64,000 nt of DNA from Algiphilus aromaticivorans DG1253 (GTDB taxonomy: Bacteria; Pseudomonadota; Gammaproteobacteria; Nevskiales; Nevskiaceae): contig NZ_JPOG01000001.1 in the NCBI RefSeq assembly GCF_000733765.1, forward strand, positions 1,984,001-2,048,000, written 5' to 3'. The notes below the pieces were generated by a model. It made no database searches. It was given only the letters and a program-made list of their open reading frames with translations, and was not told where the DNA came from. Positions within the stretch are counted from its first letter, which is position 1. Every line of letters begins with the position of its first letter. Below are positions 2,094 through 29,893 of this stretch, in pieces. The position numbers were made by a program, and so were the translations under genes.

Positions 2094-2710
2094 GGGTGCG
2101 ACAGGACGCGGAAGCCGTGCTGGCGGTGCGACATATCCGCCTTCGTCTTGGCCCGGTGGGTCTCCGAATCGAAGCGCTGCTGGTGGTACTGGCCGCGCTG
2201 CGGATCGGTCCACGCCTTGTCCGGCTGGATCAGGAGCCAGGCGAGCGCACCATCGGCCAGGGCGTCATCCCACGTTCGGGCCAGCGCCTCGGGTACCTGC
2301 GTGGCATCCGTCGCCGGCTGCAGGTAGACCGTCACCTTGAAGTCGGTGGCGTTGTCCTCGTAGGGCGCCGGGTCGACAATGAGCGTGCCGGGCGGTTCGT
2401 AGTAGTAGAAGCGCGGCGCGTCGCGCTGCCCTTCCTCGAAGCCGACCAGCTCCTCGCGCGACATCGGAGATAGGTGCCGGTCCTTGTAGGTCACCGCATG
2501 CACGCCGAAGACTTCCTGCCCCGTCTCGGTGGACGCGAGCGTGTAGTTCGGCTGCGACTCGGTCAGCGCCACCGTCAGCGTCTCGCGCAGGAAGCGCGAG
2601 CGGTAGCAGAAGCGCTGCGCCGCAACGCGCAGGGCGTTCACCATGTGCGCATCCGGGCAGCGGGTGGCGAATGGCCGCACCAGCGGCAGCATGTCCTTGA
2701 ACGTCGTCAT
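2090..2710 (-). CDS. Head-tail connector/adaptor protein
   Basis: A 206-residue protein. The N-terminus is helical with basic residues (QRFCYRSRFLRETL), followed by a strand-rich middle containing a YYYEPPGTL-like segment and a helical C-terminus (LADGALAWLLIQPD, then an RGQYHQQRF stretch). This pattern, and its place after the capsid genes, is that of gp6-like head completion or adaptor proteins of tailed phages. The ATG overlaps the previous gene's TGA (ATGA). It should act at the portal neck. The family assignment is by pattern and context only. Confidence 0.7.
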   Translation of the reverse strand: MTTFKDMLPLVRPFATRCPDAHMVNALRVAAQRFCYRSRFLRETLTVALTESQPNYTLASTETGQEVFGVHAVTYKDRHLSPMSREELVGFEEGQRDAPRFYYYEPPGTLIVDPAPYEDNATDFKVTVYLQPATDATQVPEALARTWDDALADGALAWLLIQPDKAWTDPQRGQYHQQRFDSETHRAKTKADMSHRQHGFRVLSHP

Positions 2711-6706: not shown

Positions 6707-8785
6707 CTACTGCCAGCGGTAGAGCAGTTCTTCCTCCTCCTCGGGAGGCGGCTGCTGTAGCTCGCGCAGCTTCTGCGCGGTCTCGGCGCGGGTCTGCTCG
6801 GTCTCGGCCTGCGTGTGCTCGGCCTCCAGCGGCAGCTGCTGCGTCTCGGCCGTGGTCTGCTGCGCTTCGGCGGCCTCCTTCTCGGCGCGCGCGGCGCTGT
6901 AGCGGGCGTCGCCCTGCTCCTTGGCGATACGGGCGCGCTCCAGCTCGGTCGCCATCTGCTCCTTCTCCTGCGCCTTCTGCGCCTTCTGTTCAGCCTGGGC
7001 GCGCTCCTCGTCCGTCATCTCCTCGGCGCTCTTGCCCACGCCGGTCAGCTGGCGGATGCGGTCGGCGATCTTCTCGCGCTGCGGCAGGTCGCTGGCCTCG
7101 ATGACCATGTCGAGCAGCGGCGCCTGCAGATCCGGCGGCAGCCGCTTCACCATCTCGGCCATCTGCTGGTACTGCTGGGCGCGGAAGGTCGCGCTCTGCG
7201 GCACTTCGTCGACAGCCACGGTGACGTTCGCGCGCGTGACGTCGTTGTTCAGCACGCGCTGGCCTTCCTTCTCCTCGGGCTCGTTGAGCTTCACCACCCG
7301 GCGGCCGTTCGGGCTGTCGACCGTCACCTGCTTCTGCCGGCCCTTCAAGTCCTCGACGATCAGGCTCATCAGCAGCTTGCCGACGCGGTTCTTGGCCTGC
7401 CGGTAGTTGCCGTTGATCTTGGCCAGCGTGGTCGTGCCCTGCTCCACTAGGCTCTGAATCGCCTTGCCCGAATCCGCGCCGCTCTCGCCCTTGCCGAGCA
7501 TCGACTGATAGATGCCGCCGGCGTCCTGCAGCGTCTGCTTCGAGTCCTGATAGACCTGGAACTGCTCGCTGTTCAGGCTCTGGTTGTCATCGACCCGGAA
7601 ACCCTGCGCGTTGCGGCGCTCGGGGTTGGTGACGATGTAGGCGTCACGGCGCGCGGCCTCCATGCGCGTGCGCTCGTGGTCGTCCACGGCGTCGCGGTCG
7701 GCGATGACCCGGCTGGCCGACAGGCCCCACAGCATCTTGCTGCGCCGCGCATTGACCTCGTCCTGCAGCGGGCGCATCCGTCGGATGATCCCGTAGGGAA
7801 CGCGCGTGCGGCCTTCCCGGTAGCCCCAGAACGGGATGTAGGGGAAGTCGTTGTGGTTGAAGGGCGTCGGCCGGTCGTCGATGCACAGGCCGCCGATCCA
7901 GAACGCGCGACGCGCCTTGGCGACCACGCCGCGCTTGACGGCCGTGATGCCGCGCTGAACCGCGGCGATGTGCAGCGGGTTGTCCTTCTGGAACTCGATC
8001 ACGCGCTGGTCGGACGTCGTGATGACGTCGACGTGATGCCAATCGCGATACCAGACCTCCTCCAGCTGCAGGCGGTTGCGGTCCAGGTCGATCCAGTCCA
8101 GCTCGGTCGTGGTGTAGTCCCGATAGTGCTCGCCGCCGCGGCTGTACAGGTCGGCCTCGAACAGCCGTCGGCCGTCGACCTCCTCGCCCGTGTAGTAGGG
8201 GCCCAGCTCGCGGATCTGCTTGGCCTTGTGCGGAAAGACCTTCTCCAGGTGGTCGCGGTCGTAGAAGCGCCGGCGCAGCAGGTAGCGCGCGTCCGACAGG
8301 TCCGGCTCCTCCGAGCGCGGATCCCACCAGAACTCGCGCCAGTCGCGGCGCTTGATCCGGTACTGGTAGCGGAAGGGATCGGGGCTGCGGCTGACCTCGA
8401 CCCAGCCGATACCGGCGCGCACCTGGTCGGCATAGGCCTCGCCGCACTCCTCGTCGGCGTCGGTCATGCGCTCGGCTTCCTTCACCTCCTTGCTAAGCGC
8501 CAGCGCCACGTCGTCCCAGTCCTCGCCGGCCGGGCGGCACACCCAGTCCGTGCGGCCGCGCACCTCCATGCCGAGGATCAGGTCGATGGTCGGCGCCACC
8601 AGGTTGACGACGACAGGCGGGATGCCCCGCTCCTCCATCGTCTGCAGCGCCTCGCTGTTCAGCTGGTTGCCGTCGTAGTAGTCCTCGTTGACCTGCGCGT
8701 CCAGGCGCCATGCCGGCTGCTGGATCGCCTCCCAGCGATACTTCGTCAGCTGCTCGAAGCCGAGCTTGTCCTTGCTGCCGGCCAT
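6707..8785 (-). CDS. Portal protein (P22-type)
   Basis: A 692-residue protein forming the dodecameric DNA channel at one capsid vertex. The N-terminal half has the P22-portal pattern: EDYYDGNQL near residue 34, then PPVVVNLVAPTIDLILG and GRTDWVCRP, later GIGWVEVSRSPDPF and the REFWWDPRSEEPDL stretch. The last about 110 residues are a charged Gln/Glu/Ala-rich coiled coil, like the barrel of long portals. The ATG overlaps the TGA of terL (TGATG-type coupling). Order terS-terL-portal-scaffold-capsid supports the call. Confidence 0.92.
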   Translation of the reverse strand: MAGSKDKLGFEQLTKYRWEAIQQPAWRLDAQVNEDYYDGNQLNSEALQTMEERGIPPVVVNLVAPTIDLILGMEVRGRTDWVCRPAGEDWDDVALALSKEVKEAERMTDADEECGEAYADQVRAGIGWVEVSRSPDPFRYQYRIKRRDWREFWWDPRSEEPDLSDARYLLRRRFYDRDHLEKVFPHKAKQIRELGPYYTGEEVDGRRLFEADLYSRGGEHYRDYTTTELDWIDLDRNRLQLEEVWYRDWHHVDVITTSDQRVIEFQKDNPLHIAAVQRGITAVKRGVVAKARRAFWIGGLCIDDRPTPFNHNDFPYIPFWGYREGRTRVPYGIIRRMRPLQDEVNARRSKMLWGLSASRVIADRDAVDDHERTRMEAARRDAYIVTNPERRNAQGFRVDDNQSLNSEQFQVYQDSKQTLQDAGGIYQSMLGKGESGADSGKAIQSLVEQGTTTLAKINGNYRQAKNRVGKLLMSLIVEDLKGRQKQVTVDSPNGRRVVKLNEPEEKEGQRVLNNDVTRANVTVAVDEVPQSATFRAQQYQQMAEMVKRLPPDLQAPLLDMVIEASDLPQREKIADRIRQLTGVGKSAEEMTDEERAQAEQKAQKAQEKEQMATELERARIAKEQGDARYSAARAEKEAAEAQQTTAETQQLPLEAEHTQAETEQTRAETAQKLRELQQPPPEEEEELLYRWQ

Positions 8786-12726: not shown

Positions 12727-13022
12727 GCGCCCACCTCGATCAGCCGGCCGTCCAGCTTGAGCGCGCCGTCGATGATCAGCTCGTCAACGATCAGCAGGTT
12801 CTCGCCCTCGTCGACCACCACCTCCTCGCCATCGGGGATCAGGTAGAGCGAGCCCGTGCCGCCCCCGCCGACGCCCTCGGGGATCATCGTGGGGTCAACC
12901 TTGCCGTCGGCGTTCAGCGCCGGGATCTTCCCCGCATCGGCTGCGCCGGCGCTTTCGTCGATCGCCTCCTGCTCGGTGATGTTGTAGGTGCTGGTGTCGC
13001 GGCGCAGGTACTTGTCGGCCAT
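12723..13022 (-). CDS. Fibre-associated N-terminal/adaptor protein
   Basis: A 99-residue protein starting ADKYLRRDTSTYNITEQEA, then a Gly-rich linker and a strand-rich end (GEEVVVDEGENLLIVDELI). The PALNADGKVDPTMIPEG segment resembles linkers in phage fibre proteins. It precedes the fibre gene with a four-base overlap. It probably links the fibre to the tail. Family not recognised. Confidence 0.65.
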   Translation of the reverse strand: MADKYLRRDTSTYNITEQEAIDESAGAADAGKIPALNADGKVDPTMIPEGVGGGGTGSLYLIPDGEEVVVDEGENLLIVDELIIDGALKLDGRLIEVGA

Positions 13023-14174: not shown

Positions 14175-14740
14175 GCCAGCACCTGGCTCGCGATGCGGTG
14201 GCGCAGCCAGCCGTACATGAAACGCTCATCCTTCCGGCGCCGCTCCACCAGATCCACGTAGTAGGCGCCCTGCAGGCAGTTGAGCAGCACGAACAGGGCT
14301 TTCTCGCCCTCCGCGCCGCGGTGCTCCAAGTAGTCGGCGAGCGCGCCGGCAGTGGCCGGACCCATCCGGCCGTCCTCCTTCAAGTCCTCGTAGTGCTGGC
14401 CGCCGTCGTTCAGCGCATTCAGCGCCCGCTGCAGCAGCCGTACCGCGCGGCGCATGCCGATGTTGACGCCCGTGTCCATGACCTCGGCCGTCACCTGCTC
14501 GCTGTACTCGGCGATCAGCTCGAGCCGCGGGCCGGCGTAGTAGCGCGCCAGATAGATGCTGCGCGCCTCGTCCTCGCCCAGGCGCCGGACGTCGTCGGCC
14601 GTGCACTCCACAGTCCGCGAATCCTGCAGCGTCTCCAGGGTGATGCCGTACTTCGTCGGGCCGCCGCTGTCGGCCGGGTCGTTGGTGTACTCGTCGCCCT
14701 CTGCCCGCAGGATTCCGTCGATGACGTCCTGCACGTTCAC
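14171..14740 (-). CDS. Endolysin, GH108 muramidase
   Basis: A 189-residue peptidoglycan hydrolase. The GH108 (DUF847) signature is clear: Glu14 in RAEG, then DSGGPTKYGIT; the C-terminal half has the peptidoglycan-binding-3-type pattern (LQRALNALN, then DGRMGPATAGAL). Glu14 is the expected catalytic acid. There is no signal peptide, so release needs the neighbouring holin. The GTG start overlaps the TGA of the 37-residue gene upstream. Confidence 0.9.
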   Translation of the reverse strand: MNVQDVIDGILRAEGDEYTNDPADSGGPTKYGITLETLQDSRTVECTADDVRRLGEDEARSIYLARYYAGPRLELIAEYSEQVTAEVMDTGVNIGMRRAVRLLQRALNALNDGGQHYEDLKEDGRMGPATAGALADYLEHRGAEGEKALFVLLNCLQGAYYVDLVERRRKDERFMYGWLRHRIASQVLA

Positions 14741-15253: not shown

Positions 15254-16347
15254 GCGGCAGACTTCCAGGACACCCAGTCCTTGGCGCCCGGCTTGCTCAC
15301 CTCCCCCAGCTGCACCGGCATCGAGATCGTGATCCCGTGCTCGGGGTGCGTCAGCCACAGAGCTTGCTGCGGCGGCTCGTAGGGGAAGTTGTTGGCGAAG
15401 GCGTACTCGTCGTAGCCCTTGAGGCTGCCGTTGACGATGAAACGCCGCAGCTGCATGAGCGTGTGGAAGTGCCCCATCAGCAGCGTGTCGTACCCGGTCC
15501 CGGTCTGGTTGTCGCGCGACCGCTTTTTGTGGTCGCCGCGCGTGATGGGGCCGATGGGGCCGATCATCCCGTCGCCGCCGCGGAACTGATCGCCGTGCGT
15601 CAGCTTGTACTTGTGCCCGTACAGCGTGTATAGCGCGTCCGACCCCTCCGGGATGTAGAACTGAACGCGCTTGTCGCCGCTGAACCAGCGGTCGAGCAGC
15701 GAATACAGGATCCAGTCGAAGTTCGTGGCGTTGCGTTGCTTCGCGCGCGGCTTGCGCGTCATTCGGCCGTGATTGCCCGTGACGCAGGGGATGAACACCT
15801 GTCCGAACTCGTCGGCCAGCGTCTGAATGCACCACACCTGCACGCCCAGCAGGTCGATCAGCGTCGGCCCGATGGGCATCTCGTTCGTGACCGACAGCTC
15901 CTCGTGGATGTCGCCCGTCACCATGTCGCCGCCCAGGGCGTAGACGATGCCCGGGTAGTCCGGGGTGACGACGTGCTCGCGCAGAAGAATCGTCGCCCGC
16001 TCGATCATCCGCTGCGAGCGGGTGTGCGCGACGTCGACGTCAAAGGCGTTGCTGCCGTCGATCTCGTCCTCGTTTACCACCTCGCCCCAGTGCCAGTCCG
16101 ACGCGAACAGCGTCGGCACGCCCGGCGCCTTCGCGCCCTTGCCTCGCTTGGTCAGCCACTTCGGCGGCTTCGGGCTCTGCTCCGACAGGTTGAGCAATTC
16201 GCGGCGAACCGCGCGCGCCGTAATGTCCTCCCGCTTGGCCTGCGCCAGCTCCCTGCGCAGCGTGCGAACCTGCTCCGCGAGCTCGTCGGCATGCTCCTGC
16301 TCGGTGTCAGCCAGGAAGCTCTCGCGTTCGTCTACTTTTTCCGCCAC
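15250..16347 (-). CDS. Calcineurin-like metallophosphoesterase
   Basis: A 365-residue protein with a coiled-coil start (residues 8-58) and a complete metallophosphoesterase set: SDWHWG at 83-88, GGDMV at 139-143, GNHGR at 191-195, THGD at 250-253 and a GHFH near 293. These supply the two-metal site for phosphodiester or phosphomonoester cleavage. Such genes are frequent in phages; substrates may be nucleic acid or nucleotides. It is the first large gene of the late operon. Substrate cannot be read from sequence. Confidence 0.9.
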   Translation of the reverse strand: MAEKVDERESFLADTEQEHADELAEQVRTLRRELAQAKREDITARAVRRELLNLSEQSPKPPKWLTKRGKGAKAPGVPTLFASDWHWGEVVNEDEIDGSNAFDVDVAHTRSQRMIERATILLREHVVTPDYPGIVYALGGDMVTGDIHEELSVTNEMPIGPTLIDLLGVQVWCIQTLADEFGQVFIPCVTGNHGRMTRKPRAKQRNATNFDWILYSLLDRWFSGDKRVQFYIPEGSDALYTLYGHKYKLTHGDQFRGGDGMIGPIGPITRGDHKKRSRDNQTGTGYDTLLMGHFHTLMQLRRFIVNGSLKGYDEYAFANNFPYEPPQQALWLTHPEHGITISMPVQLGEVSKPGAKDWVSWKSAA

Positions 16348-17620: not shown

Positions 17621-17962
17621 ATGGCAAACGTTCAAGCAGCAGTTCAGCAGATCCGCGACATCGCCGACCAGATCGATCGCATCGTGCCTCACGAGAGGGA
17701 TTCGAGCAGTCGGTTTGTCGAGAGCGAAATCCGCGAGACCGCCGAGTACACCCGCTACGTCGCCGACTGCATCGCCACGTGGGATGGTCGCCATATTGAC
17801 GAGGTAGGCCGGCAGGGCACTGGGGTCCTCGACTACAACGCGATGAAATTCGATATCGCGCAGTTCAAATTCGGATTCCCGGTTACCGATATCGCCGACG
17901 CTCTGATCAGTGAAATGGAGGCGGAGGCCGATGCTGCCGATGCCAGCAACGGAGACCGCTGA
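17621..17962 (+). CDS. Small acidic protein, first gene of an acr-aca-like operon
   Basis: A 113-residue acidic protein with helical predictions (VQAAVQQIRDIADQIDRIV, then RETAEYTRYVADCIATW) and an acidic Ala-rich C-terminus. It begins about 70 bases downstream of the strong promoter at 17,523. No family recognised. Small acidic proteins led by a repressible promoter and followed by an HTH gene are typical of anti-CRISPR loci, but nothing in the sequence itself proves such a role. Confidence 0.75.
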   Translation: MANVQAAVQQIRDIADQIDRIVPHERDSSSRFVESEIRETAEYTRYVADCIATWDGRHIDEVGRQGTGVLDYNAMKFDIAQFKFGFPVTDIADALISEMEAEADAADASNGDR

Positions 17963-17963
17963 A

Positions 17964-18260
17964 ATGCGCACCACGATCCAACCCTACATCGAGGAGCCGG
18001 TCGAGTTGACGGCGGGCGAACTCCAGGCCGAGGAGGGGCGGCCGCTGACGGTGCATGTTCACGGCTGGGATGCCACGGCATTCGGTGGCAAGGGCGGGCT
18101 GTTTGTGGAGCTGCGCTACGCCGGCGCCTATTCCGGCCCCTACAAACGCATGGTGCCGTCTCGCGCCGAGGCTGACGAGCTGGCGTCTGAGTGGCGGGCA
18201 TCGCTCGGTAACGGTGACCAGTGCGAATGCGCGACGTGCCGGAAAACCAATCCCCACTGA
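17964..18260 (+). CDS. Small protein with C-terminal cysteine cluster
   Basis: A 98-residue protein starting one base after the previous stop. The middle is strand-rich (PLTVHVHGWDATAFGGKGG, LFVELRYAGAYSGPYK), followed by a helix (SRAEADELASEWRASLG) and a Cys cluster (CECATC) at the end that may bind zinc. Its stop codon lies inside the first CRISPR-repeat-like hairpin. No family recognised. Confidence 0.75.
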   Translation: MRTTIQPYIEEPVELTAGELQAEEGRPLTVHVHGWDATAFGGKGGLFVELRYAGAYSGPYKRMVPSRAEADELASEWRASLGNGDQCECATCRKTNPH

Positions 18261-18334
18261 GGTGGGGAAACGGGCGATAGCTCACCTCTGCAGCGAACCG
18301 TTCCACGGATCATCCCCGCCTCGGCGGGGAACAC
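18244..18334. CRISPR. Two type I-E-like CRISPR repeat mimics, 62 nt apart
   Basis: Unit 2 (18,306-18,334, 29 nt) has flank CGGATCAT, stem CCCCGC/GCGGGG with a four-base loop and end AACAC. That is the exact geometry of type I-E repeats; by eye it matches 22 of 29 bases of the E. coli K-12 repeat read on the opposite strand (recalled, not searched). Unit 1 (18,244-18,272) has stem CCCCAC/GTGGGG, the same six-pair, four-loop shape with a compensatory A-T for G-C change. The 33-nt gap equals an I-E spacer. No cas gene is in the window. Unit 1 overlaps the end of the gene before it. It could be a mini-array, an RNA anti-CRISPR or simply two hairpins. Confidence 0.55.
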
Positions 18335-18350
18335 GGAGAAACATAGCGCA

Positions 18351-18626
18351 ATGAAAACGACCCCGCAATACCAGCGCCAGCCGGTGGGCAATCACGACCC
18401 GAACAGGGTCAACGGGCTATGGAAAAAAATCCGTGCGCTCTGTGATATCGACGACCGAGACGTCGCGGACGCGCTCAACGCGCGCGGCGTTTCGATCAGC
18501 CGCTCACGCGTCGCAGCGTGGTCACGGCGCGAGGATAGCGACAAATTCTCGCCGCTTAATGTCGCCGAGCTGGAGGCAGCGCTCGACGCGCTGATCGAGG
18601 CCGACCGTGCTGACCGACCTAAGTAA
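18351..18626 (+). CDS. DUF1456 (YehS)-like HTH protein
   Basis: A 91-residue protein. Residues 22-82 align with the DUF1456 pattern known from E. coli YehS: a first helix (LWKKIRALCDI), a D-x-x-DV-x-x-ALN segment, SRSRVAAWSRRED, a Leu-rich last helix ending ALI. This fold resembles a helix-turn-helix and may bind DNA. It follows the CRISPR-like hairpins directly and overlaps the next gene. It is a candidate regulator of its own operon. Confidence 0.78.
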   Translation: MKTTPQYQRQPVGNHDPNRVNGLWKKIRALCDIDDRDVADALNARGVSISRSRVAAWSRREDSDKFSPLNVAELEAALDALIEADRADRPK

Positions 18627-18834
18627 CTGGCCACCCTCCCCCGCCCCGACCGATATACGCTCGGCGCGCGAGGCCGCGGGGCTCACCCAGGCTCAGGCCG
18701 GCGCGCTGATCTATCGCTCTCCAGAGGTGTGGGCGAGCTGGGAGCGCGGGCGGCGGCCGCTGGATCCGGCGCTGTGGGAACTGTGGCAGATGCGGGCGGA
18801 AGATCCGGGGTGGATTGCGCGGGTGTCGATTTAG
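18607..18834 (+). CDS. HTH regulator, Aca-like by position
   Basis: A 75-residue protein from a GTG overlapping the previous gene. Residues 15-62 form an XRE-type HTH: SAREAAGLTQAQAGALIY, then EVWASWERGRRPLDPALWELW. It is the last gene of the unit and probably a dimeric repressor of the palindromic promoter at 17,523. Anti-CRISPR-associated (Aca) repressors are HTH proteins of this size placed after the acr genes; the relation is by architecture and not by sequence match. It ends convergently with the leftward early genes (four-base overlap). Confidence 0.8.
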   Translation: MLTDLSNWPPSPAPTDIRSAREAAGLTQAQAGALIYRSPEVWASWERGRRPLDPALWELWQMRAEDPGWIARVSI

Positions 18835-21708: not shown

Positions 21709-21988
21709 CGGCCGCCTCCGTTTCGCTGCGTAGCCGCTGGCGCAGCCGCGCCAGGTACTTGTCGGTGCGCGCGTCGCCCCACTTCTCACGGAGCGTCGCA
21801 ATGCGCCGCTGGCGCGCCTCCTCGTCCATGTTGACGAACAGCTCCCGGGCGGAGCCCAGCAACTTCCCGTCGGCCAGCTCCGCCTCTCGCCGGGAAATCT
21901 CTGCCGGAGTCAGAAGCTCGCCGTTGTAGCCGATGCGGTCATTGGCCTCGGCGACGCCGGCCCAGGTGCGGGTGATGTCGGCGGTCAT
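21701..21988 (-). CDS. Hypothetical early protein
   Basis: A 95-residue charged, helical protein (PAEISRREAELADGK, EARQRRIATLREKWGD). It overlaps the methyltransferase stop (ATGA) and the NinB start. Family not recognised. Confidence 0.65.
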   Translation of the reverse strand: MTADITRTWAGVAEANDRIGYNGELLTPAEISRREAELADGKLLGSARELFVNMDEEARQRRIATLREKWGDARTDKYLARLRQRLRSETEAADA

Positions 21989-22908
21989 GCGGCGCTCCGG
22001 ATCTCGGTCAGGAGGTCCGTGACGACCGGCGGGCAGACGGCGTTGCCGAGCATCTGCGTGGCGTCGCGGTGCTTGGCCGGCAGGCGGTAGGTGGACGGGA
22101 AGCCCATGGCGTCCCGGTACTCGCCGGCGGTGAGCATTCGCGTGCGGTCGCCGTCAACGACGCCCCATCGGTCAACGGTGGTAATAGTCCCGATCGGGCG
22201 ACTAAGCGCTCGCCCAGTGCGACCTGACCCGCTGGAGTAGTACGGCATCACGAAGCGCTCGCCGAAGCGCTGGCGCCCGCTCTGGATGCGCGCCTTCGTT
22301 GCGTCGGCACGACCTGGCTTGTCGATCGGCGACCAGTTGCCAGCGTCGAACCGGATGAAGGACGCCGCCGGCACGCGCTCCCGCGGCGCCATGCTCAGCA
22401 TCAGCGGGCTGCGCGTCCGGGTGCAGACGATGTAGACCCGGCGCCGGTGCTGCGGCACGCCGTGGTCAGCCGCGTCGATGATGTGCGGCGCAACCTGATA
22501 GCCCAGCGCCTCGAGCGCCTGCCTCCAGACCGGGTACAGCTGCCAGCGGCAAAACTCCGGCACGTTCTCGACCACGATCACGCGCGGCTGGTGGAACTCG
22601 GCGCAGCTGACGACGGCCCATGCGGTGCTGCGCGTGGCGTCGTGATGCGGGCGATCTGTCCCACGCGCCCGGCTGTGCCCCTGGCAAGCCGGCGAGGCCA
22701 GCAGGATGTCGTGCGCCGGCACGCGCGACCAGTCGGCCTGGTGCAGGTCCTGGCAGCTGTGCTCGGTGTCCGGGTGGTTGTCGGCGTGCACCTGCACGGC
22801 GGCCTGCCAGTGGTTCGCGGCCCACAGCACGCGGACGCCGGCCTGTGTGGCGCCAGCGGTGAAGCCGCCCGCGCCGGCAAATAGATCCACTGCGGTGGCC
22901 CAGCTCAC
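21985..22908 (-). CDS. DNA (cytosine-5) methyltransferase
   Basis: A 307-residue enzyme that transfers methyl from S-adenosylmethionine to cytosine C5. Motif I FAGAGGFTAG lies at residues 10-19; motif IV is SPACQGHS with the catalytic Cys at about 94 (the usual Pro before Cys is Ala); motif VI VVENVPEF; motif VIII DHGVPQHRRRVYIV; the C-terminal motif X ends in MLGNAVCPPVV. No matching restriction enzyme is next to it, so it is an orphan methylase, likely used against host restriction. Confidence 0.92.
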   Translation of the reverse strand: MSWATAVDLFAGAGGFTAGATQAGVRVLWAANHWQAAVQVHADNHPDTEHSCQDLHQADWSRVPAHDILLASPACQGHSRARGTDRPHHDATRSTAWAVVSCAEFHQPRVIVVENVPEFCRWQLYPVWRQALEALGYQVAPHIIDAADHGVPQHRRRVYIVCTRTRSPLMLSMAPRERVPAASFIRFDAGNWSPIDKPGRADATKARIQSGRQRFGERFVMPYYSSGSGRTGRALSRPIGTITTVDRWGVVDGDRTRMLTAGEYRDAMGFPSTYRLPAKHRDATQMLGNAVCPPVVTDLLTEIRSAA

Positions 22909-29084: not shown

Positions 29085-29893
29085 ACCAGGCAGTAGCAGA
29101 GCACCACGAATCCGACAACGTCACGCCGCTGGCGCCGGCCGGCAGCAAGCAGCAGACGCTGACGCATCGCTTCGCCGAGCGCTTCCACGTCGAACCGACC
29201 AAATTGTTCGAGACGTTGAAGTGCACGGCCTTCCGGCAGCAGGACGGATCGGCGCCGAGCAACGAACAGATGATGGCCCTGATGGTCGTGGCCGACCAGT
29301 ACAAGCTGAATCCGTTCACCCGCGAGATATACGCCTTCCCCGACAAGGGCGGCATCGTCCCGGTGGTGGGCGTCGATGGATGGGCGCGGATCATCAACCA
29401 GCATCCGCAGTTCGACGGCATGGACTTCGAGCAGGACGCCGAGAGCTGCACCTGCACGATCCACCGCAAGGACCGCAAGCACCCCATTCGAGTGACCGAG
29501 TGGATGGCCGAGTGCTCGCGCGGCACGAAGCCCTGGCAGAGCCACCCGCGCCGGATGCTGCGCCACAAGACGATGATCCAGTGCGCCCGCGTCGCCTTTT
29601 CCTTCGCCGGGATCTATGACCCGGACGAAGCCGAGCGGATCACTGAGGAGAGCGCGACTACCGAGCCGCCGTCCCAGGACGTGCGCCCGGAGCTCGAAGC
29701 GTATCCCGACGACCGCTTCGCCGCGAATCTCGACAAGTGGCGGCAGGTCATCCAGTCCGGACGCATGACCCCAGACGAAATCATCGCCACCGCGAGCACC
29801 CGCGGCGTCCTGAGCGACGAGCAGAAGCAGCAGATCCGCGACTGCGAAGTCACCGACGCCGAGTTCACCGACGCCGAAGGAGAAACCGAATGA
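29081..29893 (+). CDS. bet: Bet-family single-strand annealing protein
   Basis: A 270-residue protein that anneals complementary DNA strands in phage recombination. Family signs: FRQQDGSAPSNEQMMALMVVA-type segment (SNEQMMALMVVADQYKLN), PFTREIYAFPDKGGIVPVVG, VDGWARIINQ, and the basic PRRMLRHKTMIQCARVAF. Its gene is followed with overlap by the exonuclease, the same pair as lambda bet-exo. The C-terminal part (DDRFAANLDKWRQVI) is a variable tail. Confidence 0.93.
   Translation: MNQAVAEHHESDNVTPLAPAGSKQQTLTHRFAERFHVEPTKLFETLKCTAFRQQDGSAPSNEQMMALMVVADQYKLNPFTREIYAFPDKGGIVPVVGVDGWARIINQHPQFDGMDFEQDAESCTCTIHRKDRKHPIRVTEWMAECSRGTKPWQSHPRRMLRHKTMIQCARVAFSFAGIYDPDEAERITEESATTEPPSQDVRPELEAYPDDRFAANLDKWRQVIQSGRMTPDEIIATASTRGVLSDEQKQQIRDCEVTDAEFTDAEGETE

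Follow-up and report, generated by a model that had tools for sequence, protein, structure and literature searches.

Cas-regulating RNAs, or CreRs, have been reported for CRISPR-Cas types I-B, I-E and V-A (PMC13131331, PMC12737573), and those of type I-E autorepress the cas genes through partial complementarity to the promoter (PMC13131331). A related build is found in the CreA RNAs, whose two divergent degenerate repeats are processed normally and whose guides need only nt 1-5 and 7-11 beside a PAM to repress a promoter (PMC8501985). The Racrs published so far act as repeats without a guide, and the survey that described them sought repeats not associated with other (partial) repeats. Here we describe a prophage element of Algiphilus aromaticivorans DG1253 that has two repeats and a guide. 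Judging by sequence comparison, we put at about 0.85 the probability that it is a viral CreR mimic, that is, an RNA anti-CRISPR that would make Cascade repress its own operon.

The element is surrounded by prophage genes in the window that we analyzed, a stretch of 64,000 nucleotides (G000:C1:1984001-2048000) of the 3.8 Mb genome. It occupies positions 18334-18244 of the minus strand and is laid out as a crRNA-like gene in which repeat, guide and degenerate repeat measure 29, 33 and 29 nt. Repeat 1 (18306..18334, minus strand, GTGTTCCCCGCCGAGGCGGGGATGATCCG), which a preliminary description of this DNA had called unit 2, is a type I-E repeat, and repeat 2 (18244..18272, minus strand, CGTTTCCCCACCTCAGTGGGGATTGGTTT), its unit 1, is a degenerate one that would supply the 3' hairpin of the crRNA. 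Both of the repeat-like units reported there are indeed present, exactly 62 nt apart in register around a gap of 33 nt. The period of 62 is a canonical repeat spacing, that of the host array being 61. The compensatory base pair seen between the units is equally real, the stem reading CCCCGC/GCGGGG in one and CCCCAC/GTGGGG in the other, and folding gave each repeat a stem of seven pairs and a loop of 4 nt (−14.9 and −12.3 kcal/mol, z −2.9 and −2.5). With up to three mismatches allowed, the I-E core pattern GTTCCCCGCNNNNGCGGGGATGA has a chance expectation of 0.04 in the window. Its exact matches in the genome are phage repeat 1 and the 61-repeat array of the host, and with one mismatch it matches the second repeat of a CreR-like RNA gene of the host, described below.

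When compared by hand with the host array repeat (GTGTTCCCCGCAGGCGCGGGGATGAACCG), repeat 1 is identical at 25 of 29 positions. It keeps every stem base; the four differences lie in the loop (three) and in the handle (one), the 5' handle expected after Cas6e cleavage being AUGAUCCG where the host has AUGAACCG. This resemblance is more telling than the one first noticed, to the E. coli K-12 repeat, although our recount agrees with the 22/29 given for it. Repeat 2 reaches 14/29 by hand count, with the stem and GGGGAT kept, and is weak by itself; we accept it as a repeat because of the 62-nt register and because a second virus keeps its stem with the loop changed.

A host type I-E array with the same repeat had been suggested as something to look for, and one exists: a complete type I-E system lies on the same chromosome, ~850 kb from the prophage element, with 61 repeats (25/29 to repeat 1) and 60 spacers. 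Its cas3, cas8e, cse2, cas7, cas5, cas6e, cas1 and cas2 genes are intact, each with its Pfam family. Within the array, at G000:C1:2845398-2845215, a neighbouring spacer pair (ATCGCGCTGTGG... and CTCGAACTCTCC...) occurs twice in tandem, as in a two-unit duplication.

Eleven of the 60 host spacers match the prophage with four mismatches or fewer, five of them perfectly, while reversed spacers used as a control gave 0 matches. AAG precedes nine of the 11 matches, and we therefore take AAG as the PAM. Four perfectly matched protospacers have this PAM: those of spacers 18 (2613..2644, plus strand), 37 (8376..8407, plus strand), 13 (29348..29379, plus strand) and 25 (14267..14298, minus strand), the last in the endolysin gene. 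The fifth, that of spacer 27 (17871..17902, minus strand), is preceded by CAG, perhaps a PAM variant or an escape; the same site in the sister virus L039 likewise has CAG, with six mismatches to the spacer. One protospacer with an AAG PAM (12868-12899) is matched by two host spacers, 16 with four mismatches and 23 with two, which differ as though taken from related phages. With intact cas genes and matching spacers, an active CRISPR system should be lethal to the lysogen, and from the genome sequence we infer that its type I-E system must be silenced. The protection could instead come from a protein anti-CRISPR encoded at another place in the prophage; a search of the five genes nearest the element gave no match to known anti-CRISPR families.

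The guide between the repeats (18305-18273, minus strand, 33 nt, TGGAACGGTTCGCTGCAGAGGTGAGCTATCGCC) falls into two parts. Nucleotides 1-16 (18290..18305, minus strand, TGGAACGGTTCGCTGC) carry a seed that matches the host cas8e promoter, and for nucleotides 17-33 (18273..18289, minus strand, AGAGGTGAGCTATCGCC) no target was found. The target in the cas region (L002:15589-15606) reads AAG followed by TGGAAAGGTTCTCTG, with the PAM at 15589-15591 and the start of the protospacer at 15592-15606. Pairing involves nt 1-5, 7-11 and 13-15 of the guide, so that within nt 1-15 only nt 6 and 12 mismatch the target, and both belong to the guide positions left unpaired in Cascade (PMC8501985, PMC5904413). 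The AAG overlaps a predicted −35 box, TTGACA (cas strand, 15589-15584), which lies 18 nt upstream of a weak TAAGTT, before cas8e. Across the 3.8 Mb genome, TGGAANGGTTCNCTG occurs exactly three times, in the phage guide, in the cas promoter target and in the guide of the CreR-like host RNA; AAG joined to the seed (AAGTGGAANGGTTC) is found a single time, at the cas promoter; the prophage has no copy. The best of the 60 genuine array spacers has five such bases beside AAG at the cas8e promoter, compared with 13 for the phage guide, and only 1 in 20,000 shuffled guides reached 13 at the promoter with the demand for a PAM dropped.

The CreR-like gene of the host is a two-repeat RNA gene that lies antisense to the cas genes, with cas3 on one side and cas8e on the other (L002:15634-15721, G000:C1:2855634-2855721), and it consists of the repeat CGTTCCCCTGCGACAGGGGATGAACCG, the guide TGGAATGGTTCGCTGCCTGCCATGGAATGGCC and the repeat TAGTTCCCCGCATGCGCGGGGATGTAAGG. 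Going by its sequence, its layout and place are those of a CreR. The start of the phage guide agrees with its guide at 15 of 16 positions, including the non-pairing nt 12 and 16, and both guides pair with the target at the same nucleotides. From nt 16 on, pairing collapses in the phage, L039 and host guides alike. The protospacer also spans TATTAT (about 15608-15613), the likely −10 box of the host creR, which was picked by eye at a place where the scanner called no promoter; with this box inside the protospacer, the host creR may itself be repressed too. The cas8e gene was found in 6 of the 58 genomes of the family. A simple pattern search of the loci around the other five (L066-L070) gave no repeat-like element, and the single family match to the host creR region turned out to be an ordinary array.

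Conservation of the phage element rests on two viruses, since L039 (IMGVR_UViG_3300035199_001163) was the sole second virus found; the locus was not found in named phages, plasmids or genome contigs of other species. The flanking genes of L039 on one side are 67% identical to those of the prophage. Over the predicted promoter, repeat 1 and guide nt 1-16 the two viruses differ at one position, in the handle, so that repeat 1 agrees at 28/29 and the guide start at 16/16. The end of the guide (nt 17-33), in contrast, agrees at 5/17 (Fisher p = 2e-5). In L039 the overlapping gene has zero synonymous changes in its first 12 codons (p = 0.019), although silent change was possible there. Repeat 2 retains its stem, with the loop altered. 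A seed that is kept beside a guide end that is lost is what seed-limited guidance predicts; it would not be expected of a repeat decoy or of a spacer matching another virus along its whole length.

This pattern bears directly on the strongest alternative, in which the RNA would be a Racr that only mimics repeats and ties up Cas6e and Cas7 in useless complexes, the guide being irrelevant. Its phage location, close similarity to the host repeat and type I-E host would all suit such a decoy, and phage repeats that stand alone have been found to inhibit CRISPR (PMC10651486). We nevertheless consider it unlikely: the guide start is identical in both viruses and the guide end is not, the cas promoter holds a unique PAM-flanked match, and the two repeats stand at canonical spacing, whereas the published search took only repeats without another (partial) repeat nearby. 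The preliminary description had proposed a Racr of the published type; we depart from it because the guide is the most telling part of the element, bearing the seed of the host cas-regulating RNA and matching the cas promoter. A decoy effect may still add to the guided mechanism, as a non-targeting crRNA also weakens immunity (PMC10651486).

Three further explanations are each very improbable. One, also raised earlier, is a mini-array that excludes superinfecting rival phages through host Cascade and Cas3. Two repeats around a spacer-sized gap would fit it and archaeal viruses have such arrays (PMC6858448, PMC11656645), but the comparison of the 33-nt gap with phage sequences gave no match in 50,697 INPHARED phage records, nor in L039 besides the element itself. 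Moreover, L039 keeps the seed but shows no conservation over more than half of the guide. Nowhere in the genome except at the cas promoter does the seed have a PAM-flanked match, and this holds for the prophage as well. The repeats agree with those of the host at 25/29 and 14/29, where mini-array repeats are said to be identical to them (PMC11656645). In another reading, the RNA acts on some non-cas gene of phage or host, as a CreA-like antitoxin or a phage repressor. CreA RNAs are built alike and shut off the promoter of an adjacent toxin (PMC8501985), yet the cas promoter is the one place in the genome with AAG plus the seed, and the prophage has none. Last, the hairpins could be due to chance, or the element could be a relic without function, a fragment copied from the host cas region and left to drift. 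In favour, the guide start clearly derives from the host creR or has a common origin with it, down to the non-pairing nt 12 and 16; against this, promoter, repeat 1 and seed are selectively kept in a virus whose flanks are ~67% identical, as is the stem of repeat 2 with its loop changed.

Production of the CreR mimic would require a promoter on the minus strand. Directly upstream of repeat 1 we located by eye TTGCGG-17-TATGTT, with a predicted −35 hexamer at 18363..18368 and a predicted −10 hexamer at 18340..18345 (both minus strand, both identical in L039). It would start transcription at ~18333, in the first bases of repeat 1; its match to the consensus is weak (7/12) and the promoter scanner did not call it. 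At the other end, the scanner reported a terminator-like match within repeat 2 (18268-18251, tail TTGGTTTTCC; shuffles average 0.6), and repeat 2 may thus also be a weak terminator in this prophage. In L039 a strong terminator-type hairpin (−22.6 kcal/mol, z −6.2), oriented like the RNA, directly follows repeat 2. It speaks for transcription of the minus strand, although its run of T is short and it was absent from the output of the terminator scanner. Counting against the model, the best fold of the whole 91-nt RNA pairs the repeats with each other instead of forming two local hairpins. The earlier reading is partly supported. Its general line, an antisense, crRNA-like RNA acting against the type I-E CRISPR of the host, was right, and the host does have a type I-E system with the same repeat; the mechanisms put forward for it are not the best fit.

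The predicted −35 hexamer lies in the first codons of a plus-strand gene (18351-18626) that encodes a DUF1456 protein (Pfam PF07308), and the next plus-strand gene (18607-18834) encodes an Xre-like HTH protein; both products could be Aca-like regulators. Farther along, the prophage encodes a DNA cytosine methyltransferase (21985-22908, phrog_116) that perhaps acts against host restriction.

From the repeats, the unique match between guide and promoter, the CreR-like RNA of the host, the self-targeting spacers and the conservation of promoter, repeat 1 and seed, we infer the following course of transcription, processing, loading, repression and effect on immunity. A short minus-strand transcript from TTGCGG-17-TATGTT would begin at repeat 1, and host Cas6e would cleave both repeats to yield a crRNA made up of a handle of 8 nt, the 33-nt guide and a hairpin at the 3' end, a processed RNA of a predicted ~60-62 nt whose 5' start would be AUGAUCCGUGGAACGG. 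Once taken up by host Cascade, it would pair at nt 1-5, 7-11 and 13-15 beside the AAG PAM and so bring Cascade to the cas8e promoter, where it would cover the −35 box and stop transcription of cas8e and the genes behind it. Cas3 would probably not be licensed to cut the chromosome, as the rest of the guide stays unpaired. The supply of Cascade would then drop, each Cascade carrying the phage RNA would also be lost to immunity, and the RNA may weaken immunity further by competing for Cascade (PMC10651486). The phage would in this way evade the many matching host spacers and could persist as a prophage. Work in E. coli calls for caution with this model: off-target binding of Cascade via short seed matches left transcription unchanged, and repression by Cascade was weakened by PAM-distal mismatches (PMC5904413).

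CreR autoregulation has been presented as an advantage to the host, in that a protein anti-CRISPR that disables Cascade derepresses the cas genes. The phage copy would turn this circuit on the host: the better Cascade works, the better it would silence itself. The CreR mimic would also explain, in a way open to experiment, why a lysogen survives with 11 spacers that match the prophage it carries. More generally, the "spacer" within a phage repeat element could be functional, and searches for solitary repeats may have missed guided RNA anti-CRISPRs, because repeats with partners were set aside.

Degenerate I-E-type repeats were also seen in six other viral contigs (L071, L073, L074, L076, L081 and L083), 2-6 in each, with short, uneven gaps (~20-27 nt). 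Several contigs of the L071-L083 set have terminator hairpins after the repeats, and two guides of L081 begin TAACGGTTGCAC and TAACGGTCGCTC. These are possibly further guided or multi-repeat RNA anti-CRISPRs.

CreRs and repeat-decoy Racrs are already known, and a CreR mimic serving as an anti-CRISPR would be a new variant. It is quite likely, though somewhat less so than the mimic itself, that the element stands for a new anti-CRISPR class, and for the first phage-borne CreR: a phage guide RNA that would copy the seed of the host CreR, turn Cascade into a repressor of its own operon and let a heavily targeted phage live as a prophage. Our literature search found no report of a phage-borne CreR, which is weak evidence of novelty as most subscription journals lay outside its reach.

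Compared with the CreRs, the phage RNA is likewise crRNA-like and has two degenerate repeats at canonical spacing, with a PAM-adjacent seed match to a cas promoter, pairing restricted to the PAM-proximal part and Cascade-dependent repression as the proposed outcome; its guide start is nearly that of the host's own CreR-like RNA. It differs in that it is not encoded with the cas operon, where the host carries its own copy between cas3 and cas8e. It lies in a prophage ~850 kb away, has its own predicted promoter and would serve a virus instead of balancing host expression. With the Racrs (solitary phage repeat units such as RacrIF1) it shares the location on a mobile element and the small RNA that imitates the host CRISPR repeat. 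In contrast to them, it has a second degenerate repeat, kept in L039, and a functional-looking guide, and guided repression of a cas promoter is proposed for it and not only dead complexes; owing to its two repeats, the Racr survey would not have listed it. In the strict sense it is therefore neither a host CreR, being outside the cas operon, nor a Racr, not being solitary. The CreA RNAs of CreTA modules resemble it in their two degenerate repeats, in a guide that pairs through nt 1-5 and 7-11 and leaves nt 6 and 12 unpaired, and in having Cascade as the repressor, but the phage element would target a cas promoter and not a toxin, and no toxin gene was recognised beside it. The mini-CRISPR arrays of archaeal portogloboviruses also place two repeats around one spacer and are processed by host Cas proteins; their repeats equal those of the host and their spacers are directed against rival viruses, whereas here the repeats are not host-identical and the guide has no match in the INPHARED phage records or, besides the element itself, in L039. 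Finally, phage homologues of the host CRISPR repressor AmrZ were reportedly described by Borges et al. in 2020. There, too, a virus bears its own copy of a host regulator that switches cas off, with the difference that AmrZ is a protein and the regulator proposed for this prophage is a guide RNA.
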